NCBI GenBank assembly: GCA_902761735.1
Contig: CACWLL010000004.1
Coordinates: 1 to 64,000, forward strand
Source: an uncultured bacterium
Lineage (GTDB): Bacteria > Cyanobacteriota > Vampirovibrionia > Gastranaerophilales > Gastranaerophilaceae
Length of the DNA: 64,000 nt
Direction: 5' to 3'
Shown: positions 3,101 through 55,375 of the stretch, piece by piece
Position numbering within the stretch: the first letter of the stretch is position 1
How the letters are laid out: every line of letters starts with the position of its first letter
Notes under the pieces: generated by a model
What the model saw: the letters and a program-made list of their open reading frames with translations, nothing else
Databases searched by the model: none
What the model was told of the DNA's origin: nothing
Made by a program: the position numbers and the translations under genes

Positions 3101-3609
3101 GTTCAGCTAAAGCTGCATACAATTGGAGGTTTGCTAAGGATTGGTCATTACAACCAAACTTGTTAGTTGCATATAACTTCTTTGGACAAGAAAATTGGCA
3201 TACTGACTTTGGTCAAATGGGTATGATGTCAGGGATGTTGCATGGTATAAATGTTGCACCTGGCTTGAACCTAATCTTTGAAAAGGAAACCTTCAGTGCA
3301 TACGCTACAGTCCAGTATATGTATAATATAAATCAATCTGTTGGTGGTCGTGCCGGAAATGTTAATTTGCCTCACGTTCATATGGATAGAGGTTACCTGC
3401 AATACGGTATCGGTGTAAACAAGAAGTTCACCGAAAGATTCTCCGGATACTTGCAAGCTGTAATCAGAAATGTCGGCAGAAACGGTATCGGATTACAGAT
3501 GGGCTTCCAATGGATGTTGGGCGGCGGCTCAAAATCTAAAAACAAAAAAGGTGACGTAAACGGTCAAAGTTCGGCACCGGAAAAAACGGTTATAAAAAGT
3601 AAAAAATAA
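1..3609 (+). CDS. Autotransporter adhesin, 5'-truncated by the window edge
   Basis: The frame is open from base 1, so the true start lies upstream. The visible 1200 or so residues split into an Asn/Thr/Asp-rich passenger made of short degenerate repeats (N-x-G-x-I/L turns, as in beta-helix adhesins) up to about residue 880, and a C-terminal region of amphipathic, aromatic-rich strands from about 900 to 1165 that looks like an autotransporter beta-barrel. The family secretes its passenger across the outer membrane (type V secretion) for adhesion. Oddly, the barrel-like part does not end at the C-terminus: a Lys-rich polar tail of about 27 residues follows the last strand. A hairpin terminator lies 24 bases after the stop codon. 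Role as adhesin is inferred from family, not from a known receptor. Confidence 0.85.
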   Translation, partial: NYGDGTLTVNTNINNYGDNGYIDNAGTILAQNIDNAAKVDNANGGTITATGTLTNSKTFNTNGEVNANALTNTGALTIFEDGVVNVNETLANFGDNANIANYGEINSKDINNAKTITNYANAEITATNNFINSGTLTNLANGEITVLNKITNLTTGDIENAGTILAAEIDNSALVNNAAGSITATGKLTNSKTFNSNATVAANAMDNTGTYTNYGDGTLTVNTNINNYGDNGYIDNAGTILAQNINNAAKVDNGTILAQNINNAAKIDNVSSGTITATDTFGNSNEVNNSGDILANALNNTGAFTNTEEGDITVNTTILNDTNGTFDNAGDVLALDIVNNGTVDNANGGTITATDNLNNTNIFNSDGNVNADSLDNSGVFTNNSNGIVNVNTVFDNTNQVNNAGTVNTETFANEASGTLTNDGIVSAIENFNNDGIVNNTAEGLGTLNIKDGYSNDSITQGIINIAGDNTAFDNDAPMTVEQLLNNDGTLNNTSDIVVHNTNDDATLDNSGTINTDAGSTITADRLINDNATINMTQADMTITAQDQDINGTINVLGTDPSDVSTLFIDGTTPNFAGELNIGDLTDPSVKTTLEFQSGSIIDQAVMNIAPGNVLNIAEDPAGDAHVVLNENDAYQGDILLNDGTLEMKNVNYTTGTQSTTAGGTSPYYEQTGGDLVLTNSTLTMQDASLINGGDMLVDSSSVYNSQNNAFNVDNLTNGGLVNAINGGYENYGISDNLYAGDGASSTQGNFTLDLYARSNDNKNYDSYGGPSTKIQAANGTNGTLYISDFDLHGDIFGADAPIDSSIKLDGLFGGNVVPGQNIIFAATDKEILTPIAWYKINSKGGGNYAFEISRFNPEAFRGQVTTIAQYQNQLAIDDMLFNHTMLDQGFKGNDYLATHPNRYASAGDLYAPYQYSRKDGGVWVKAYANFEKLNMNHGLNVGNNAYGTIIGADFGLYDLSHGWQFMPTAYIGYNGAHQYWDGTSAYQNGGQAGFMGTFYKDNFMIGALAYGGIYGNEMHTPRGTDHAFNYFAGGSAKAAYNWRFAKDWSLQPNLLVAYNFFGQENWHTDFGQMGMMSGMLHGINVAPGLNLIFEKETFSAYATVQYMYNINQSVGGRAGNVNLPHVHMDRGYLQYGIGVNKKFTERFSGYLQAVIRNVGRNGIGLQMGFQWMLGGGSKSKNKKGDVNGQSSAPEKTVIKSKK
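637..759 (+). repeat. Direct repeat copy B within the autotransporter passenger
   Basis: Near-identical to bases 1-123, same reading frame. The high DNA identity, against strongly diverged neighbouring repeats, points to recent duplication or gene conversion. Confidence 0.9.
712..807 (+). repeat. Tandem 48-bp duplication (16 codons) in the passenger
   Basis: Bases 712-759 and 760-807 differ at only three positions. The unit is a multiple of three, so the frame is kept. It lies at the right end of repeat copy B, showing that the passenger grows by small in-frame tandem duplications. Confidence 0.92.
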
Positions 3610-3632
3610 TTGTAATCAGATATAGCCAAGCT

Positions 3633-3672
3633 AAGAGGTGCGTTTTGAACGTGCCTCTTACTTTATTATTAT
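3633..3672 (+). terminator. Rho-independent terminator after the autotransporter
   Basis: AAGAGG pairs with CCTCTT, continued inward by two G-U pairs and CGTT/AACG around a three-base loop, followed by a T-rich stretch. Confidence 0.8.
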
Positions 3673-3778
3673 AGTATTTGCAATTCTGATGTATATTCAA
3701 CTGATATAAGTTTATTTGCTTGTGTCTGTAAATTTTTGTAACAAAAATCGGAAAACGGAAATATTATTAATCAATTAT

Positions 3779-3807
3779 TTGCAGGCTCTGGGTCTTGTTG
3801 TTATAGT
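3779..3807 (+). promoter_or_regulatory. Sigma-70-like promoter of the small HTH gene
   Basis: TTGCAG, a 17-base spacer, then TATAGT. The start codon is 21-36 bases downstream. Confidence 0.6.
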
Positions 3808-3827
3808 AATTAGGTAGGTGGTATAAA

Positions 3828-4061
3828 ATGAGGATTTCTGATATGAATATCAAGATAAATAAAAATTTAAGGAACTTGCTTGAACCTGAATTAGATATCA
3901 TGAAACATGTTGCTCAAGGTAAAACTAATAAACAAATAGCAAAAGAAATTTATGTCAGTGAGCATACTGTAAAAGCTCATATCGCAAAAGTCCTGCATGT
4001 TATGAATGTAAAAGATCGTACAGAAGCCGTTTATAAGTTAGCAAAATTTGGGCTTATTTAG
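3828..4061 (+). CDS. Stand-alone LuxR/GerE-type helix-turn-helix protein
   Basis: A 77-residue protein that is almost nothing but a LuxR/NarL output domain: 'GKTNKQIAKEIYVSEHTVKAH' spans the recognition helices, and the 'DRTEAV' ending is typical of the fold. It has no receiver or sensor domain, so it is probably a constitutive or partner-controlled DNA-binding regulator; the target is unknown. It resembles the output domain of the response regulator at 57503-58171. Two starts are possible: the ATG at 3828, preceded by TAGGTAGGTGG, or the ATG at 3843, for which the AGGA inside the first codons could serve as ribosome binding site. It lies 80 bases before ilvD on the same strand with no terminator between. 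Confidence 0.8.
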   Translation: MRISDMNIKINKNLRNLLEPELDIMKHVAQGKTNKQIAKEIYVSEHTVKAHIAKVLHVMNVKDRTEAVYKLAKFGLI

Positions 4062-4141
4062 TATTAATCTTGATACAAAATACTGTTTGGGCTATATTAA
4101 TTATTGCTATTTTGCAATATAAGAATTCTAGAGGTTAATAT

Positions 4142-5797
4142 ATGTTGAGTGATAACATAAAAAAAGGATTGGCAAGGACTCCGCATAGGGGTTTATTGAT
4201 GGCAACCGGAGTGAGTAAAAAAAATATAGATGCTCCTTTTATCGGTATTGCCAGTGCGTTTACCGATTTAGTTCCAGGACATATCGGAATGCGTGATTTA
4301 GAACGTCAAATAGAAAAAGGTATTCACACAGGAGGCGGACAAGCTTTTATATTTGGAGTGCCGGCTGTTTGTGATGGAATTGCAATGGGACATGGCGGAA
4401 TGAGATATTCACTTCCGTCGAGAGATTTAATAGCGGACTGCGTTGAAACTATGGCAGCAGCTCATCAATTGGATGGCTTAGTTCTTCTTTCAAATTGCGA
4501 TAAAATTACTCCCGGAATGATTATAGGTGCATTAAGGTTAAATATTCCGGCTATTGTTGTAACCGCAGGTCCGATGTTGGATGGAATGTGTCGAGGTGAA
4601 AATAAATTAACTATGGTGACGGGCTCTTTTGAGGCTGTCGGGCGTTATCGAAACGGCGAAATTGATGAAGAATACCTGATTGCAATGGAAGAAAATTCTT
4701 GTCCGTCGGCAGGTTCATGTCAGGGGATGTATACGGCAAACACTATGGCATGCTTAACAGAGGTGCTGGGTATGAGTTTGTCTTATTGCTCATCAGCATC
4801 TGCAGTATCTTCTCAAAAACGCAGAATCGCATTTGATAGTGGCATGCGTATTGTAGAACTTGTAGAAAATCAAATTAAGCCTTCAGATATTATTACAAAA
4901 GAAAGCATGACAAATATGATTAAATGCTCTTTGGCGATAGGTGGCTCTACAAATACATTTTTACACACTCTTGCTATTGCAAATGCTGCGAATATAGATA
5001 TTACTTTAGATGATTTCGATAGATTAAGCCGAGAAATTCATCAGATAGTGAAAATCAATCCGTCATCTACTCTAACGATGACTGATTTTCATCAGGCTGG
5101 CGGTATCCCTGCAGTGTTAAAGTCAATGTATCAAAGTGCGGACTTGTATGATTCGAAAACTGTTTCAGGGCTTTCTGTTTCTCAAATCGCAAAAAGTGCG
5201 TATGCTGATGAAAATATAATTCCTAAATATGATAATTCAACGTATACTCAAGCAGGACTTGGTGTTTTATATGGTAATTTGGCAAAAGACGGTTGTGTTA
5301 TTAAAATATCCGGAGTCGATTCTGAGTGTTATACGTTTGAGGGAGTTGCAAAAACATTTGATAGTGAAGAAGCAGCTATGCATGCCTTGGAAGGTGATGA
5401 GATTAAAGAAGGTGACGTAATTGTAATTCGATATGAGGGTCCAAAAGGTGGCCCGGGTATGAGGGAAATGCTTGCTCCTACATCTTTATTGGTAGGTAAA
5501 GGTTTGGGCAAAAAATGTGCGCTTATTACAGACGGAAGATTTTCCGGTGCAACAAGAGGTATTTGTATAGGGCATGTATGTCCCGAAGCGGCAAACGGCG
5601 GAGTGATTGCACTTGTTGAAAATGGCGATAAAATAAAAATTGACATACCTTCCCGTTCTGTTAAGCTGCTTGTAAGTGAAGAAGAATTGCAAATGCGCAG
5701 AGCTACGCTAAAACCGTACTTGCCAAAAGTTACATCAGGTTATTTGGCAAAATATGCAAATACTGTTTCTGATGCGAGTCACGGTGCGATAGTTTAA
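4142..5797 (+). CDS. ilvD: Dihydroxy-acid dehydratase
   Basis: Converts 2,3-dihydroxy-isovalerate or -methylvalerate to the 2-oxo acid in valine, leucine and isoleucine synthesis (cytoplasm). It has the usual length (551 residues) and the family blocks: '[10 protein letters not shown]', '[18 protein letters not shown]', '[12 protein letters not shown]', '[11 protein letters not shown]' and '[10 protein letters not shown]'. The early block reads '[10 protein letters not shown]', as in the E. coli-like class, rather than the 'TPCN' of many [2Fe-2S] enzymes; cluster type is therefore uncertain but an oxygen-sensitive cluster is possible. AGAGGT sits 8 bases before the ATG. A strong terminator follows, so it is a single gene or the end of a two-gene unit with the HTH gene. 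Confidence 0.96.
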
Positions 5798-5814
5798 TAA
5801 TAAATTATATATTA

Positions 5815-5850
5815 AAAGGGCTTGTTATCTGATAACAAGCCCCTTTTTTT
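5815..5850 (+). terminator. Rho-independent terminator after ilvD
   Basis: Twelve-base stem GGGCTTGTTATC with its complement around a one- to two-base loop, followed by a run of seven or more T. Confidence 0.93.
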
Positions 5851-5884
5851 GTCGAATATATGATTTGGCATTTAAAAAAACTAA

Positions 5885-5912
5885 TTGTAACAATATGTAA
5901 CATATATATACT
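5885..5912 (+). promoter_or_regulatory. Putative promoter with dyad upstream of the first twin gene
   Basis: TTGTAA, 16 bases, TATACT. It overlaps a dyad GTAACA-N10-TGTTAC (about 5896-5917) that could be an operator. The promoter would give a leader of roughly 170 bases before the gene at 6096. Nothing else gene-like is seen in 5851-6068. Confidence 0.45.
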
Positions 5913-6068
5913 TGTTACGCAATTTTTAAATACAAAAATACTTTATATAAATATAAGAGATATTTAATAGGAAATAAAACACTGAGGTAAGTCTGAATAT
6001 GCAATATTAATTTGAAAAATGCTGATAAATCATTAAAGGTTTAAATAGCAAAACAAATTGATAAACAC

Positions 6069-6079
6069 GTGAGTAAATG
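6069..6079 (+). promoter_or_regulatory. 5' flanking motif GTGAGTAAATG of twin gene 1
   Basis: GTGAGTAAATG lies 16 bases before the ATG at 6096. Its exact reverse complement occurs after the stop codon at 6461-6471. The same arrangement surrounds the paralogue (6591-6600 and 6978-6987). Confidence 0.7.
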
Positions 6080-6095
6080 AAAAGGAGATTCAATC

Positions 6096-6440
6096 ATGGC
6101 AACATTTGATTATGGAAACTACGGGAAATTAGATGCAAAAAGCAACGCAACAGAATTAGCAAGATTAAGAAAAGAAGCAGCAGAAGCACAAATTGCGCAA
6201 ACAACCAATAGAGATGTGGCAGCTATTAAATTCCCGAAGAGTGCGGAAAAAACGGCTCCGGCAAGTGCAAATGAAGCATTAGGTTTATATGGAGTTGCAT
6301 TAACCGGTTTGGGTACAAGGGTGGATGTTTCAGCTCTTGGTTTAACCCCTCAAGCTATGTCTGTTATAAATACATATGTAACTTCGGAACAACAGGCAAA
6401 TATATCAGCAGATATGCTGGGATTCATGGCAATATCATAA
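6096..6440 (+). CDS. Unknown 114-residue protein, twin 1
   Basis: I do not recognise this family. The protein starts 'MATFDYGNYGKL', has an Ala/Glu/Arg-rich helical stretch ('ELARLRKEAAEAQ', residues about 21-33), a variable linker, then a conserved block 'NEALGLYGVALTG' and a C-terminal helix pair. There is no signal peptide, membrane segment or Cys. It is a clear paralogue of the gene at 6618. A strong AAAGGAG ribosome binding site lies 8 bases before the ATG, and codon use is highly regular, suggesting good expression. It has its own terminator and is bracketed by complementary 11-base motifs. Function unknown. Confidence 0.85.
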   Translation: MATFDYGNYGKLDAKSNATELARLRKEAAEAQIAQTTNRDVAAIKFPKSAEKTAPASANEALGLYGVALTGLGTRVDVSALGLTPQAMSVINTYVTSEQQANISADMLGFMAIS

Positions 6441-47857: not shown

Positions 47858-48009
47858 AATTACCTCCTATTTTTCCTTTTGAATTGTAAGATTTTTATCA
47901 TTGTTACGTTCATAATAGAATAAATTAAAAAAAAATGCAATAGTTTAACAGATGTAAATAATACACTTGTTTTTATGATAAAATACTTTATAAGGAGTAT
48001 TGATTAATT

Positions 48010-51000
48010 TTGATAATTGACGGAAGTATATCATCTGATAAAACCAACATTTTGGTTGAAAAATGTGCATCACTCTTAAATTCCGGTGTTGATGCTTCGG
48101 AAATTCTTGTCCTTGTCGCAAATTCTTCATTGAAAAACAGATTTACAGATTCTTTGTTAAATAAGCTAACAATAAATCATTTTGAAAAATTACAGGTACA
48201 TTCTTATTTTTCTCTTGTGTATAATTCTATAAATGATAATTGGGCATTTCTTGAAAATAAGAATCCGTTTCCTAATCCCAAGATATTACCAAATCTTGCG
48301 GGGTTAGAAATTTCTCAATTTATATTGAAAGACATTTTAAAGAGTGTTAAATTTAGCGGTTATAATTCAAAAAAATCTCTCTTGCATCAATTGTTTAGGC
48401 GGTATTCTTTAATTGTTCAAAATAATTTGAATGATGATGATATAGATTTCCGCTCACATGTTTTGCATGAATCCTTTGGAGAGGATGCTAAATTTGCATT
48501 AAAAAAATTTTTAAGACAAACCCTTGAACTTCGTGATTTTGATTATTTGAGGCAGAGTTTGCTTTTTGAACATATATATAAAAATACTGATTATTTTAAA
48601 GCGATAAAATATCTGATACTTGATGACGGAGATGAAATTACTCCGGCGTGTTACGATTTTATTACATATATTAAGCCGCAGCTGAAAGATTATTATATAG
48701 CATTTGACAAAAAAGGATCAAGCAGAATTGGTTATTTAAGTGCTGATAAGACTGCCGTTTGGGAGTTTGAAAAACTATTTAATGAACCTGTTATTTCCAT
48801 TGATACTCAAACAAAATTGAAATATGATGCTGAAAATCTATACAATAATGTTTTGAATAATTCTGCGGAAACATTAGAATATTTTTCTGTGCATTCTCCG
48901 TCTAAACGCTCAAAAATGATAGAGTTTACAATAACAAAAATAAACGAATTAATAAAGAATAATATATTGCCTTCTGAAATTTCGATTATTACTCCGGTTG
49001 TGGATGAGATGTTGCGGTTTACTTTAAAGGAAAGTTTAAGCAGGTTTGTTAATCCTTTATTTTTAACAGGTAGTGAGAAATTAATTCAAAATAAACTTGT
49101 ATTGACAGCTTTAAATATTTTAAAATTTAATACGGAACTTCAAAGTTCATTATCAGAAATTGACCTAAGACCAATTTTCGTAAATTGTTTAGATATCCCT
49201 TTAAAATATTGTGCAAAGATTTTAGAGGAATTTGATAAGACTAACAGTCTTATTCCGTATAAATTCGACGATGATGAATATACAGCAAAATACGAAAAAT
49301 TTTTAAATGTAATAACAAATATATTACCTAAAAAAGAAAAGCTTTCGGCGCAAGTCTTGGAAATATATGAAAGTTTGATGACTTTTAAGTCGTACGAGCA
49401 AAATGAAGTTACAAAGTTCAACTTTTTTATAAAACAATTAGAAGATTTTGAAAATGTTTATGGTGAAAAGTTTTTTGAATATAAAGAAGAATATATAGCT
49501 CAAATAGAAAATTCAATTATTTCCGAAAACCCTTATTCTACTATCGAAATTAAGAAGAATGATTTGGTGATTGGTACTCCTCAAAAAATTATCGATAACC
49601 AAATAAGAACTAAGTATCAGTTTTGGCTTGATGTATCAAGTCAGGAATGGGTTAAGTCGGATACGGGTCCTTTATATAATGCTTGGGTATTTCAAAAAGG
49701 ATGGTCAAAAGATGAGTATACTATAGAGGACAATATTTTATTAAGCAAGGAAAAGACAGCAAGAATTTTAAGAAAACTTGCCCTTTGTGCAGATGAAAAA
49801 GTGTGGGCATGTTCCTCTATGTTTGATGGTAATGGAGTTGAGAATTTTGGCGGGATTGAAGAATTTATCAAGATAAAAGCTGAAAATATTTCTGAAAATA
49901 AAAAAAGTAGCTGCAATATTGTGATTACGCCAAGAGATGACCAAAAACCTGTTCTTGAATATAAACAAGGTAAAATGGCAATATCTGCCGTTCCCGGTGC
50001 AGGTAAAACTACAATTTTGCTTGTTTTAATTCTTAAATTGTTAGAACGGGGAATTAATCCGAATAATATTTTTGTAATGACATATATGGAATCAGCGGCT
50101 CGTAATTTTAGAGAAAGGATAAAGTCAATCAGAGAAAATTCTTCAGAACTCCCGTATATAAGTACAATTCATGGACTGGCGTTACGAATTATCAAAGAGA
50201 ACGGTAACCATGAGCGTTTAGGTTTAAATGCAGATTTTGATATTTGTGACGATACACAAAAATCACGTATTATCCGTGAAGTTTTAAAAAAAGTGAAAGT
50301 TGAGGATAAAAGTTTAAATGAATTTATCCAAGCGATTTCTGTATTCAAATTAGGGCGTGGTGATTTTAAGCATTTAAAAAGTAAGGATAAAAAACTTGTT
50401 CTGTTCAAGTCCTTTTATGAGGAGTACCGACGTATCTTAAATTCAAATAATTTAATAGATTATGATGACATACTTCTTTTATCCGTAAAATTATTAGAAG
50501 AAAATCCGGATATAAGAGAATATTATCAAAACATCTGTCAATTTATAATAGAAGATGAAGCTCAAGATTCATCTTCTGTTCAGCAGAGATTAATAAATAT
50601 TTTGAGCGGCAAATATAACAATCTCATTCGTTGCGGTGATATTAATCAAGCTATTACTACAACTTTCACCAATGCAGATGTAAAAGGTTTTCGAAAATTT
50701 ATTGAAACAAGTCAGAGTGTCAGCATGAATTGTTCTCAAAGATGTTGCGAAGATGTTTGGAAGCTCGCAAATACCGTATTATTGGATTCGGAAGCTAATG
50801 AGGAAACAAAAGATGCCTTTTATCATATTTTGATGCAGCCGGTAGCCGGAAAAAATCCCGTATCGGAAAATGCGGTAACCGGTAAAATCTTTGAAACGCC
50901 TGTCGAGGAGAAAAATTACATATTAAAAGAAATCAAATCAGCATTTAACAAGAATAAAAAGGCAACTGTCGGAATACTGGTAAGGAATAATAAGCAGGTT

Positions 51001-51867
51001 ATTGAGTGGATGAATATTATAAATAATAACGGTTTTAAATGTATTACAAGAAGTGAATGTCTTGCTCAAAAATCTGTTTTCAGAATAATTTATGCAATAT
51101 TAAATATTATACTTAAACCTTTTGATAATAATATATTAGCTGCGTCTTATGCAGTGTTATCAGATTTAGGATTTTATAAAGCAAAATATACAGACATAAT
51201 AAAGAAATATCCGACAGCTTTTATTGCCGCACAATATGGGAGTCTTGAGATAACAGATTTGGAAAAATTTTTGTGGGAAGTAAATTATTGGACCAGTTTT
51301 CCGCATCTGTCTCCTGATGAATTGGCAATAAAAATCGGATTAAACTATTTTAGCAGTGAAATAGATAAATCAAATATATATTTAATTTCTACTCTTATAA
51401 AAAGATTATCTTTTGATACAAAAAATCTTCAGACAATAATAAATAGATTAGAGGAGTTGTCTCAGCGAAATTCTCTTAGCGGATTTAAATTTTTCTCCGA
51501 AGAAGATGAAAGTGATAAAGAGATTTTAGAGGGTAAGGTACAAGTTATGACCCTGCACAAGTCAAAAGGGGATGAGTTTGATTATGTATTTCTTCCGGAA
51601 ATGTCGGAAAGAAGTTTAACTATTGATTTTTCCAAATTGAAATATAAAATTTCCGATTTTATGGAACAATTGAAAGAGTTGAATCCTGATTACAAAATAA
51701 AATCCGAGTATGAGTTAAAACAGGATTTAATTGCGGAAAATTTAAGGCTTTTGTATGTCGCAATTACAAGAGCAAAAAGAAAATTATATATAACTACATC
51801 AGAGAAGGTAAAAGTTTTTGGACGGCTGAAAAAAGAAGAACCAAATAAAATCTTTGATATTATATAA
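48010..51867 (+). CDS. Fused inactive + active SF1A helicase (UvrD/AddA-like)
   Basis: 1285 residues, TTG start 12 bases after AAGGAG. The C-terminal half is a complete UvrD/AddA-type helicase: Walker A 'VPGAGKTT' at about 661-668, motif II Asp849-Glu-Ala-Gln-Asp, 'GDINQAI' (motif III), 'TLHKSKGDEFDYVFLP' (motif V) and 'LYVAITRAKRKLYI' (motif VI). The first 600 residues repeat the fold in degenerate form: 'DGSISSDKTNIL' replaces Walker A, 'LQVHSYFSLVY' is the Ia-like block and 'YLILDDGDEIT' (about 200-210) replaces motif II. AddB has such a dead helicase fused to a nuclease; here it is fused to the live helicase. DNA-end processing is the likely role, with the nuclease encoded next. Confidence 0.88.
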   Translation: MIIDGSISSDKTNILVEKCASLLNSGVDASEILVLVANSSLKNRFTDSLLNKLTINHFEKLQVHSYFSLVYNSINDNWAFLENKNPFPNPKILPNLAGLEISQFILKDILKSVKFSGYNSKKSLLHQLFRRYSLIVQNNLNDDDIDFRSHVLHESFGEDAKFALKKFLRQTLELRDFDYLRQSLLFEHIYKNTDYFKAIKYLILDDGDEITPACYDFITYIKPQLKDYYIAFDKKGSSRIGYLSADKTAVWEFEKLFNEPVISIDTQTKLKYDAENLYNNVLNNSAETLEYFSVHSPSKRSKMIEFTITKINELIKNNILPSEISIITPVVDEMLRFTLKESLSRFVNPLFLTGSEKLIQNKLVLTALNILKFNTELQSSLSEIDLRPIFVNCLDIPLKYCAKILEEFDKTNSLIPYKFDDDEYTAKYEKFLNVITNILPKKEKLSAQVLEIYESLMTFKSYEQNEVTKFNFFIKQLEDFENVYGEKFFEYKEEYIAQIENSIISENPYSTIEIKKNDLVIGTPQKIIDNQIRTKYQFWLDVSSQEWVKSDTGPLYNAWVFQKGWSKDEYTIEDNILLSKEKTARILRKLALCADEKVWACSSMFDGNGVENFGGIEEFIKIKAENISENKKSSCNIVITPRDDQKPVLEYKQGKMAISAVPGAGKTTILLVLILKLLERGINPNNIFVMTYMESAARNFRERIKSIRENSSELPYISTIHGLALRIIKENGNHERLGLNADFDICDDTQKSRIIREVLKKVKVEDKSLNEFIQAISVFKLGRGDFKHLKSKDKKLVLFKSFYEEYRRILNSNNLIDYDDILLLSVKLLEENPDIREYYQNICQFIIEDEAQDSSSVQQRLINILSGKYNNLIRCGDINQAITTTFTNADVKGFRKFIETSQSVSMNCSQRCCEDVWKLANTVLLDSEANEETKDAFYHILMQPVAGKNPVSENAVTGKIFETPVEEKNYILKEIKSAFNKNKKATVGILVRNNKQVIEWMNIINNNGFKCITRSECLAQKSVFRIIYAILNIILKPFDNNILAASYAVLSDLGFYKAKYTDIIKKYPTAFIAAQYGSLEITDLEKFLWEVNYWTSFPHLSPDELAIKIGLNYFSSEIDKSNIYLISTLIKRLSFDTKNLQTIINRLEELSQRNSLSGFKFFSEEDESDKEILEGKVQVMTLHKSKGDEFDYVFLPEMSERSLTIDFSKLKYKISDFMEQLKELNPDYKIKSEYELKQDLIAENLRLLYVAITRAKRKLYITTSEKVKVFGRLKKEEPNKIFDII

Positions 51868-51895
51868 TATAATCAATGAAAAGGAGAAATAAGCA

Positions 51896-52537
51896 TTGCA
51901 AATATTTTCACCTAACATGTTAAAAGTTTATGAAGAATGCCCGAAGAAATACGAATATAGGTATGTCCAAAAATTCAATGTACCACAGTCAAAAGGAGTT
52001 TTTGAAAAGGGTAAGAAAATACATGCACTCGCTCATTATTATTTGCGAGGTGATGATATTCAAAAATTGTTGGCGGCACTTACCGATGATGAGTATTTGG
52101 TATGGAAGTCGTTACTTAATAATGAATATTTTCAAAAAAATTATGTCAATTCAGAATATAATTTGACAACTAAGGTTGGCGATTTTTGGATTGGCGGGCG
52201 ATTAGATGCGTTTATGAAATCCGATAATAATTACTTTATATTAGATTATAAAACCGGAGCTGTACCTAAAAATCCCTCTGAAGATTATCAGACAATGGTT
52301 TATTTGATATGTGCTAACGAAGTTTTAGCAAAAGGTTGGGGGAATAATTATTCACTTTCTTTTGTGTATATAGATTTGAAAAATAATCAAAACCATAAAA
52401 TTACATTTGATACGGAGAAAAAAACACATTATTATATGGTGTTAGAAAATGCTTGTAAAAAAATTACAACGACCAGAAATTTTTTAAAAAATCAAAATCG
52501 TTGTAATTTTTGTGAATATTCAAAATTCTGTCATTAA
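51896..52537 (+). CDS. PD-(D/E)XK nuclease with Fe-S Cys pattern (Cas4/AddB-like)
   Basis: 213 residues, TTG start with AAGGAG 9-10 bases upstream. Catalytic residues: His43, Asp104 ('GGRLDAF'), Asp117 and Lys119 ('LDYKTG'), with Gln132 ('YQTMVYL'). Cys15, Cys203, Cys206 and Cys212 give the one-plus-three spacing of the [4Fe-4S] staple found in AddB and Cas4. No cas genes or repeats are nearby, and the gene follows the double helicase after 28 bases, so it is most likely the nuclease partner of that protein in break repair. Its stop codon overlaps the stop of the convergent gene. Confidence 0.9.
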   Translation: MQIFSPNMLKVYEECPKKYEYRYVQKFNVPQSKGVFEKGKKIHALAHYYLRGDDIQKLLAALTDDEYLVWKSLLNNEYFQKNYVNSEYNLTTKVGDFWIGGRLDAFMKSDNNYFILDYKTGAVPKNPSEDYQTMVYLICANEVLAKGWGNNYSLSFVYIDLKNNQNHKITFDTEKKTHYYMVLENACKKITTTRNFLKNQNRCNFCEYSKFCH

Positions 52538-53139: not shown

Positions 53140-54066
53140 CTATAGAACAGCCCTAATTGCAGATATCATCCCATTTTCATCTGCTATATTTTTACCGGCT
53201 ATATCAAAAGCCGTACCGTGTCCGGGAGATGTCCTTACTATATCTAAGCCAATTGTCATATTTACGGTTTTATCTCCGGCAACCGTTTTTATCGGAATTA
53301 ACCCTTGGTCGTGGTATGTTGCTATATAACAATCATATGGAATTTTTTTATTATTAAAATATGCTTGTCCGGCATTAATAAACAGAGTATCTGCCGGCAG
53401 TGGTTCCGTTATATTTATTCCCGTTTTTCTTAATTCCGAAACCGCAGGCTTCATTATTTCAATTTCTTCTGTACCTAAAATCCCGTCTTCTCCGGCATGT
53501 GGATTAAGGCTGCATAAAGCGAATTTAGGATTTTCAATTTTAAATTTCTCTTCTAAAATCGCTTTAAGATTAGTTATCTTTGTTATAATCATATTTTTAG
53601 AAAGTTTTATATCTTTCAATGCACAATGTCTTGTCAATAGCAGTACCCTGAAATCATTTGCCAAAAACAGCATTTCTGCGTGTTGACCTTCTTTAGCTAA
53701 TTCTTCATTTAATATTTCGGTTTGTCCGTTATATTTATGTCCTGCAAGATGTAAGGCATTTTTGGCAACCGGTGCTGTTACTATAGCTTTTGGTTTAATT
53801 TCGCAAACTTTTTTTAAAGATTGATAGGAAAACTCTCCGGTTTCCGGGGTAATGTTTCCGGGTGATATGTTTTCCCCAAACGGTATTTCAATAATTTCGT
53901 ATTCTTTATCAAGTTTGCCGTAATAATCAATTACTTTTTTATTTGATATTAATACGATATCCTCTTTGGGCAAGTCTAAAGCTTTTAAAGCTTTGATTGT
54001 TATTTCTGCCCCTATTCCATTTGGATCACCGGTTGTTATTCCTATTTTTTTTGAATAATTAGTCAT
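53140..54066 (-). CDS. PdxA-family 4-phospho-sugar-acid / 4-hydroxythreonine-4-phosphate dehydrogenase
   Basis: 308 residues. 'IGITTGDPNGIGAEITIKAL' and 'VTAPVAKNALHLAGHKYNGQTEIL' are PdxA motifs with metal-binding His; 'ATYHDQGLIPIKTV' and 'RTSPGHGTAFDIAGKN' follow. The neighbour is a DUF1537 kinase, and PdxA2 proteins with such kinases oxidise and decarboxylate 4-phospho-threonate or -erythronate to dihydroxyacetone phosphate. A vitamin B6 role (PdxA) cannot be excluded. The ATG at 54066 is used; a TTG three codons earlier is possible. Overlaps the kinase gene. Confidence 0.9.
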   Translation of the reverse strand: MTNYSKKIGITTGDPNGIGAEITIKALKALDLPKEDIVLISNKKVIDYYGKLDKEYEIIEIPFGENISPGNITPETGEFSYQSLKKVCEIKPKAIVTAPVAKNALHLAGHKYNGQTEILNEELAKEGQHAEMLFLANDFRVLLLTRHCALKDIKLSKNMIITKITNLKAILEEKFKIENPKFALCSLNPHAGEDGILGTEEIEIMKPAVSELRKTGINITEPLPADTLFINAGQAYFNNKKIPYDCYIATYHDQGLIPIKTVAGDKTVNMTIGLDIVRTSPGHGTAFDIAGKNIADENGMISAIRAVL

Positions 54067-55375
54067 GGTTTTCAAAGTATTGCAAGATTTCTATAAGAGT
54101 TTTTGTACCGCCTAAATTGCCGGATTTGGTAACTATCCACTGGGAGTTATAATCTGTGCTTAATGCAATAGCAGGTGCGACTTCATCTATTAATTGAAGT
54201 TGCGTAGCATCAATTGCACGGCAGCATTTATAAGATGTTTCCCCTCCAAGCAGAATTAGTATAACGTTTTTTTGTTTAACCACTTTTTTTGTAAGCTCTG
54301 CAAGAAAATCCGTAATAAGCGCAGCTAATTTATCTCGGGTTAATTCAGCATCATATGATGTATCAGAAAATCCGTCAAAGCTTTTAAGCATTTCTGAAGT
54401 GTGGACAACCACGATATTATTTTGCCCAAGGTTAGAAACAATGCGGCTTACAAGTTCATCAGAAACACCGTTTATTATTTCTTCAATATCCGGAGCTACA
54501 AATAGTGTATTTTCATCAAAATCATCAGCGTATTCAAGCTCTTTTATTTGAGCGGCGGTGATTTCTGTGGCACTTCCGGAAATAATAAGTTTTGGAAGTT
54601 CCGGTACTATAACGGGTTCTTTATTTTCATCATTTAAATCAGCGAACCAGATATTGCTGAGTTCTCTTGCTGTTGCAGCAGTTCCTGTCGGCAGTATTTT
54701 ATAATCCGATTTATTTACGGCGAGCCATACTTGTTGGATATCTGTTGCGGATACCGCATCAACAACAATTAATTTTTTACCATTGGATATCAATTCATTT
54801 ATGGATTTTAATATAGGTCCTGCCCCTTTCATTACATCTCTTAGGTCAAGTGATGCAACAAGATGGGAGTATTCTTCGCCTATTTGAGCCGTTAACATTG
54901 TTGGAATATGGGATTCTCTTATTGGAGAAAACGGATCTCGGGCCATTTCTGTGCGTTCAATAGGAACCCCTTTTAAAAGGTGATATCCCCCAACAGTGAC
55001 TCTGCCTTCCTGTGGAAATGCCGGAATTATTACTGCCGCATCCCAATCCAAGACTTCAAGCATGCCTAATGTTTCAACGGCAATATTTCCTCTAACCGTA
55101 GAGTCAATTTTCTTGAAAAAGTAATCAGGTGCAAATTTATCTTGCATTATTTGAGTAATAGATTTTACTTTTTCGTAGGCACTATCAGGTGGAATATTTC
55201 TTGATTCGGATGAAATAGCCCAAATCTGAGTATCGCCCATATGAGAAGTGTTTTCCAGCTCTTCTCCCAGTATAATTTGTGTTCCGGCGCCACGCATGCG
55301 AAACTGTAATGCGGAATCATTTGCACCGGTTAAGTCGTCGGCAATAATACATGCAACACTTGATTTAATCATCAT
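54059..55375 (-). CDS. Four-carbon acid sugar kinase (DUF1537 family)
   Basis: 438 residues. 'CIIADDLTGANDSALQFRMRGAGT' opens the family's N-terminal domain; 'FFKKIDSTVRGNIAVETLGMLEVLD' and 'IIPAFPQEGRVTVGGYHLLKGVPI' are conserved blocks, and the nucleotide-binding C-terminal domain contains 'ILLGGETSYKCCRAI'. Known members phosphorylate D-threonate, L-threonate or D-erythronate at the 4-position. With PdxA-like next door, a short route from C4 sugar acids to a triose phosphate is inferred. Overlaps ssb by four bases. Confidence 0.88.
   Translation of the reverse strand: MMIKSSVACIIADDLTGANDSALQFRMRGAGTQIILGEELENTSHMGDTQIWAISSESRNIPPDSAYEKVKSITQIMQDKFAPDYFFKKIDSTVRGNIAVETLGMLEVLDWDAAVIIPAFPQEGRVTVGGYHLLKGVPIERTEMARDPFSPIRESHIPTMLTAQIGEEYSHLVASLDLRDVMKGAGPILKSINELISNGKKLIVVDAVSATDIQQVWLAVNKSDYKILPTGTAATARELSNIWFADLNDENKEPVIVPELPKLIISGSATEITAAQIKELEYADDFDENTLFVAPDIEEIINGVSDELVSRIVSNLGQNNIVVVHTSEMLKSFDGFSDTSYDAELTRDKLAALITDFLAELTKKVVKQKNVILILLGGETSYKCCRAIDATQLQLIDEVAPAIALSTDYNSQWIVTKSGNLGGTKTLIEILQYFENHD

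Follow-up and report, generated by a model that had tools for sequence, protein, structure and literature searches.

A fused dead-and-live helicase and a separate Cas4/AddB-type nuclease as a candidate DNA-end-processing system in the Gastranaerophilales

Two adjacent genes in an uncultured member of the Gastranaerophilaceae, a long helicase gene and a short nuclease gene (Table 1), raise the question of whether they encode a single DNA-end-processing machine and, if so, whether it arose by rearrangement of AddAB or belongs to a lineage of its own. They were studied within a window of 64,000 nucleotides (the whole stretch of contig CACWLL010000004.1 that was analysed), where both open reading frames (1285 and 213 amino acids) and the 28 bp between them, on the same strand, were found as originally predicted. 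Judged by their sequence, the neighbouring genes encode an M16-type protease, a small membrane protein, PdxA and kinase-like proteins. On the minus strand, at 53140-55375 of the window, a gene for a PdxA-like dehydrogenase adjoins a DUF1537-type kinase-like gene, which suggests a small sugar-acid pathway.

Table 1. Features of the helicase and nuclease genes, in positions of the window
Feature	Position	Strand	Details and evidence
Fused helicase gene	48010-51867	+	1285 aa, TTG start
Nuclease gene, Cas4/AddB-type PD-(D/E)XK, four Cys	51896-52537	+	213 aa, TTG start
Shine-Dalgarno AAGGAG of helicase gene (TTG at 48010)	47992-47997	+	sequence
Shine-Dalgarno AAGGAG of nuclease gene (TTG at 51896)	51881-51886	+	sequence
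N-half, residues 1-640, motor-dead SF1A helicase-like, AddB-like	48010..49929	+	AlphaFold2, Foldseek, hhalign, stand-alone homologues
Eroded Walker A of N-half, G5-S-I-S-S-D-K11-T12	48022..48045	+	sequence; homologues with GxxxSGKT
Degenerate motif II of N-half, D205-D-G-D-E209	48622..48636	+	alignments
C-half, residues 641-1285, intact UvrD/PcrA-type 3'-5' SF1A helicase	49930..51864	+	PF00580, PF13361, SF1 motifs
Live-motor Walker A AVPGAGKT, residues 660-667	49987..50010	+	sequence; G, K and T columns invariant
Live-motor motif II DEAQD, residues 849-853	50554..50568	+	sequence; columns invariant
Nuclease active site, D104 (GRLDA) to D117-Y-K119	52205..52252	+	residues invariant, 29 relatives
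Cys203-Cys212 cluster (with Cys15), putative Fe-S ligands	52502..52531	+	alignments

The C-terminal half of the long protein had been described as an intact UvrD-type helicase, and this held: it matched PF00580 (E = 1.3e-48) and PF13361 (E = 9e-27), and its Walker A motif and motif II are kept across 28 relatives. The chain stops after motif VI, at residue 1285, and carries no nuclease domain. When compared with target profiles of equal size, this half scored 444 bits against PcrA, 399 bits against UvrD-Cas4 and 307 bits against AddA.

The N-terminal half (residues 1-640) gave no helicase match in Pfam, NCBIfam, PHROG or PADLOC, and a sequence-profile search of the PDB returned a weak collinear match to Rep (E = 0.036), which was superseded by a fold search. 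An AlphaFold2 model made with 42 relatives was confident (pLDDT 88.5, pTM 0.85), its nearest solved structures in Foldseek being UvrD, AddB, AdnB, AdnA, AddA, RecB and RecC (UvrD 2is1, E = 1.4e-17; AddB 4cej_B, TM 0.63; AdnB 9np6_B, TM 0.66), and hhalign showed it to be collinear with most of the C-terminal half (99.5%, E = 1.2e-22). This confident helicase-like fold, together with the profile alignment, identifies the N-terminal half as a degenerate helicase, as had been proposed for the first 600 residues, which do fold as a helicase core. The proposed motif decay was also present: motif I is GSISSDKT, with K11 and T12 retained and the glycines gone, motif II is DDGDE (D-D-x-D-E or similar in fused relatives, among which D208 and E209 are invariant), and different residues stand where motifs V and VI would be. 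Relatives that belong to other families, whether of the order or of the class, have a normal GxxxSGKT Walker A in the N-terminal half, as do almost all stand-alone homologues described below. Erosion of this motif is essentially limited to the window's family (f1) and f6, although L113 of f14 and the stand-alone homologue L269 also show it; its loss in the dead half is specific to certain lineages. As relatives have a normal Walker A with the other motifs altered, the motor was dead before its ATP site decayed, and before that decay the N-terminal half shared the state of AddB, in which most motifs are missing from the helicase-like domain (PMC4824097). Conversely, when the helicase region of AddB was scored against the same kinds of profile, the N family ranked first (134 bits for the stand-alone and 125 bits for the fused form, from profiles that may be favoured by their larger number of sequences), followed by PcrA (110 bits), AddA (61 bits) and the C-terminal half (46 bits).

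The separate AddB/Cas4-type nuclease was likewise confirmed, as the 213-residue protein matches PF12705 (E = 2.7e-18) and has Cys15/203/206/212, H43, D104 and D117-Y-K119 all in place. Residues G101, R102, D104, A105, D117, K119 and Q132 are invariant in 29 relatives, and the four cysteines are absent from the nuclease of three linked relatives (L029, L035 and L036). Its AlphaFold2 model (pLDDT 92.8) has ACE1, AdnA, RecE, Cas4 and AddB as the nearest solved folds. Although it was the best Foldseek match, ACE1 was not supported as the cyanobacterial orthologue, a cyanobacterial nuclease having no sequence match to it. Profile probabilities for the nuclease were 97.6% with UvrD-Cas4, 95.8% with AddB and 1.6% with AddA. 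By profile, the dead half and the nuclease are both AddB-like and the motor is not AddA-like.

To what extent the two genes travel together was seen in 289 genomes of the class, in which the N-terminal half (counted at about E = 1e-34 or better) was present in 203 and the nuclease in 191. Both were found in 188 genomes, the helicase only in 15, the nuclease only in three and neither in 83 (Fisher P = 1.6e-52, for this one table of 289 genomes and with phylogeny ignored). The fused helicase occurs in nearly every Gastranaerophilales genome, a more diverged form is found in class families f9, f14 and f15, and genus g8 has lost both genes. Two of the three nuclease-only genomes are just 56% and 81% complete and the third is a weak match. 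The helicase-only genomes, where the nuclease was not detectable, belong to genera g46 (12 genomes), g16 (two) and g12 (one), and together with the three nucleases lacking cysteines they suggest that the nuclease or its Fe-S cluster is dispensable in some lineages. Of 51 loci, 35 have the nuclease next to the helicase, and in 34 of the 35 the conserved part of the nuclease begins -31 to +114 bp from the stop of the helicase gene. The adjacent genes overlap or nearly overlap in many relatives; among the unlinked cases, 11 genomes have an orthologous stand-alone nuclease elsewhere (E = 1e-59 to 1e-100). In one relative (genome G022) the helicase has an in-frame insert (L058:2305-2980) with a DUF559 nuclease-like domain (PF04480, E = 3.5e-37), bordered by repeats of the SPSPLEGE / SPYPLPQGER type, which gives the impression of a small mobile element inserted without disrupting the frame; oversize helicase frames of this kind were also seen in G146, G217 and G238.

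A profile of the N-terminal half found the dead half in other members of the phylum as a separate protein of about 646-746 amino acids. All 20 phylum genomes sampled with this stand-alone protein also have an orthologue of the C-terminal half (E = 1e-74 to 1e-176, a better match than the other UvrD paralogues) and a stand-alone nuclease of 234-335 amino acids, the frame of the N protein being broken by a stop in one of them (G416). No N protein, C orthologue or comparable nuclease was found in any of four f41 genomes, which are small (1.7-2.4 Mb). Most of the phylum has the three genes at unlinked sites, but they lie side by side in one genome of the phylum (L269) and again on the Salinibacter ruber plasmid pSR56, beside recJ; the C helicase adjoins the nuclease on contig C209 of G341 (3518-5467 and 5550-6209), and an N homologue was seen alone on an Ilyobacter megaplasmid. 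Phage and viral scans with the N-terminal half gave no homologue. Since its halves are separate genes elsewhere, the 1285-residue protein is best understood as the product of two fused genes, and the system as one of three parts, a dead UvrD-fold protein (N), a live UvrD/PcrA-type motor (C) and a Cas4/AddB-type nuclease, with N and C fused in the window's class.

The computed architecture, folds, motif state, gene linkage and co-inheritance lead us to consider it probable that the products of the two genes act as one helicase-nuclease in DNA-end processing, which would work like AddAB, AdnAB or RecBCD and has a lineage of its own. The two proteins would form a complex with a role in double-strand-break repair, in which the C motor would translocate 3'-5' and unwind DNA from the break. 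The N half, from which motifs II, V and VI are gone and, in this case, Walker A as well, would be the channel or scanning half, as in AddB or RecC, and may guide or scan a strand, by analogy with the way AddB does so for Chi. The nuclease would dock on the N-C pair and trim the 5' strand, as the AddB nuclease does (PMC4824097), leaving 3' single-stranded DNA for RecA. Because the system has no nuclease of the AddA type, it may spare the 3' strand even in the absence of Chi, and would then resemble AddAB after Chi.

Instead of this, the fused protein might be an accessory helicase of the UvrD/PcrA type, acting in replication/transcription conflicts or excision repair, with a regulatory dead half and a loosely linked Cas4-like nuclease. 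PcrA and UvrD-Cas4 are indeed closest to the C-terminal half, the 15 helicase-only genomes would fit, and, although there is a separate PcrA, such paralogues are common; however, the near-perfect co-inheritance of the nuclease, also where it is unlinked, the overlap of the genes in many relatives and the AddB-like dead half make such a role unlikely. The original prediction had instead read the locus as a rearranged AddAB, which by descent would mean that the AddB nuclease split off, the AddA nuclease was lost and the helicase parts were fused. The N family is the best match to the AddB helicase region among the sets compared and the nuclease resembles that of AddB rather than that of AddA, but this descent is not supported, because PcrA and UvrD-Cas4 both outrank AddA as matches to the C-terminal half. 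The nuclease is also nearer to UvrD-Cas4 than to AddB, true AddAB and the fused-helicase system both exist in sister families, and the halves are separate genes outside the class, from which it follows that the genes brought together by the fusion were two members of a distinct system; we therefore regard descent from AddAB as very unlikely. An anti-phage defence module, pairing a Gabija-like helicase with a Cas4-like nuclease, is highly improbable: PADLOC matched GajB and Cas4, and UvrD-Cas4 fusions are tied to defence loci (PMC5704561), but the PADLOC matches are to generic UvrD and PD-(D/E)XK domains, for which reason this reading was rejected, and the genes are near-universal and kept across the order whereas defence genes are patchy, with no gajA-like ATPase, CRISPR or restriction genes adjacent and no viral homologues.

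If the two genes of the window process DNA ends together, the question arises of which other machines accompany them. Neither a complete AddAB, as separate addA and addB genes, nor a complete RecBCD was detected in the window's genome, where the RecB and RecD models matched generic helicase motifs only. The only other candidates there are PcrA and a UvrD-Cas4 fusion of 1022 amino acids with a C-terminal Cys cluster (contig C13, L039:1204-4272); no PF12705 protein was found in this genome beyond the 213-residue nuclease and that fusion, and no second strong UvrD/RecB candidate with a nuclease besides it. Class families f8 and f13 are without the fused-helicase system and carry a true AddB-AddA pair instead. 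An extra AddB/AddA-like pair is present beside the fused-helicase system in f9, f14 and genus g16, and so exclusion is not strict and the fused system is not always the sole end-processor. Large PF12705 proteins (750-1280 amino acids) also occur in several phylum genomes. Two f12 genomes (G060 and G066, about 98% complete) gave no PF12705 protein, and neither the fused system nor AddAB was detected in them. AddB-like proteins of 930-1050 amino acids without Walker A, each adjoining an AddA-like helicase, were seen in G027 (L206), G057 (L217) and G084 (L218), and by profile these do not resemble the N family. A protein of about 1030 amino acids (L060:736-3834, also L059, L061 and L062), which is present in other families of the order, joins on sequence grounds an N-terminal PHP/EndoQ-like domain to a complete UvrD helicase.

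RecBCD has been reported to occur in marine Prochlorococcus and Synechococcus and to be incomplete in model cyanobacteria (PMC5101192), while S. elongatus is stated to have AddAB (PMC10269773), so that the cyanobacterial picture is not uniform. The trio is a strong candidate for the break-processing machine of those cyanobacteria that are without the textbook ones. More tentatively, it might be a third, unnamed class of end-processing system, ancestral in the Cyanobacteriota and present in other phyla, which would serve as the main resection machine where RecBCD and AddAB are lacking, would have no Chi attenuation and became fused in the gut-dwelling class. Its main interest lies in suggesting three genes for a step that is missing from break repair in cyanobacteria; as three co-inherited candidates, these make the question testable in transformable laboratory strains, and it has a bearing on gene targeting in cyanobacteria. 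If this is so, the dead-plus-live helicase design has been assembled in a further way, with a dead half that has, in two lineages or more, tolerated losing its ATP site.

Among the named systems, Gabija has a GajA ATPase beside GajB, whereas here the neighbours are the protease, membrane protein, pdxA and kinase-like genes, and the association of CRISPR Cas4 with cas1/cas2 is not seen, no cas genes lying beside the nuclease in the window and its NCBIfam cas4 score (47.4 bits) falling under the cut-off of 65. The UvrD-Cas4 fusion (Hudaiberdiev et al. 2017, PMC5704561) also combines a UvrD-type helicase with a pfam12705 nuclease, but as a single helicase with no dead half and with the nuclease fused to it, unlike the present proteins. 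In the unfused UvrD/Cas4-like operons, mostly of Clostridiales, UvrD and a pfam12705 nuclease are neighbours and a repair role has been suggested, with no dead-helicase partner described (PMC5704561). AdnAB of mycobacteria, a Foldseek neighbour of both the N-terminal half and the nuclease, shares two UvrD-type halves and a PD-(D/E)XK nuclease, but AdnA and AdnB each combine motor and nuclease, whereas here the fused halves carry none and the nuclease stands alone. RecBCD resembles the present system in its dead helicase half (the RecC-like role) and in a single nuclease for the whole machine, and differs in its RecD-type 5'-3' motor, which has no counterpart here, and in that our nuclease is unfused and of the Cas4/AddB type with a Cys cluster; RecB and RecD subunits as such were not recognised with their models, the matches being generic. 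The nuclease of RecBCD, which lies in RecB, acts on both strands. The expectation that one nuclease would imply end-processing different from that of both systems thus fails for RecBCD and stands for AddAB, which has two nucleases (PMC4824097). With AddAB the system shares one live SF1A motor, one dead helicase half and an AddB-type Fe-S nuclease, but the motor and dead half form one chain, the nuclease is separate and a second, AddA-type nuclease is absent: the C-terminal half, which is nearer to PcrA, does not have the nuclease that AddA carries at its own C-terminus, and the AddB-like dead half has its nuclease in a gene of its own, rather than fused to it as in AddB. No description of the trio was found in the open-licence literature, and we conclude that this is a real, conserved arrangement of known parts and an apparently undescribed new variant of the AddAB/AdnAB/RecBCD design.
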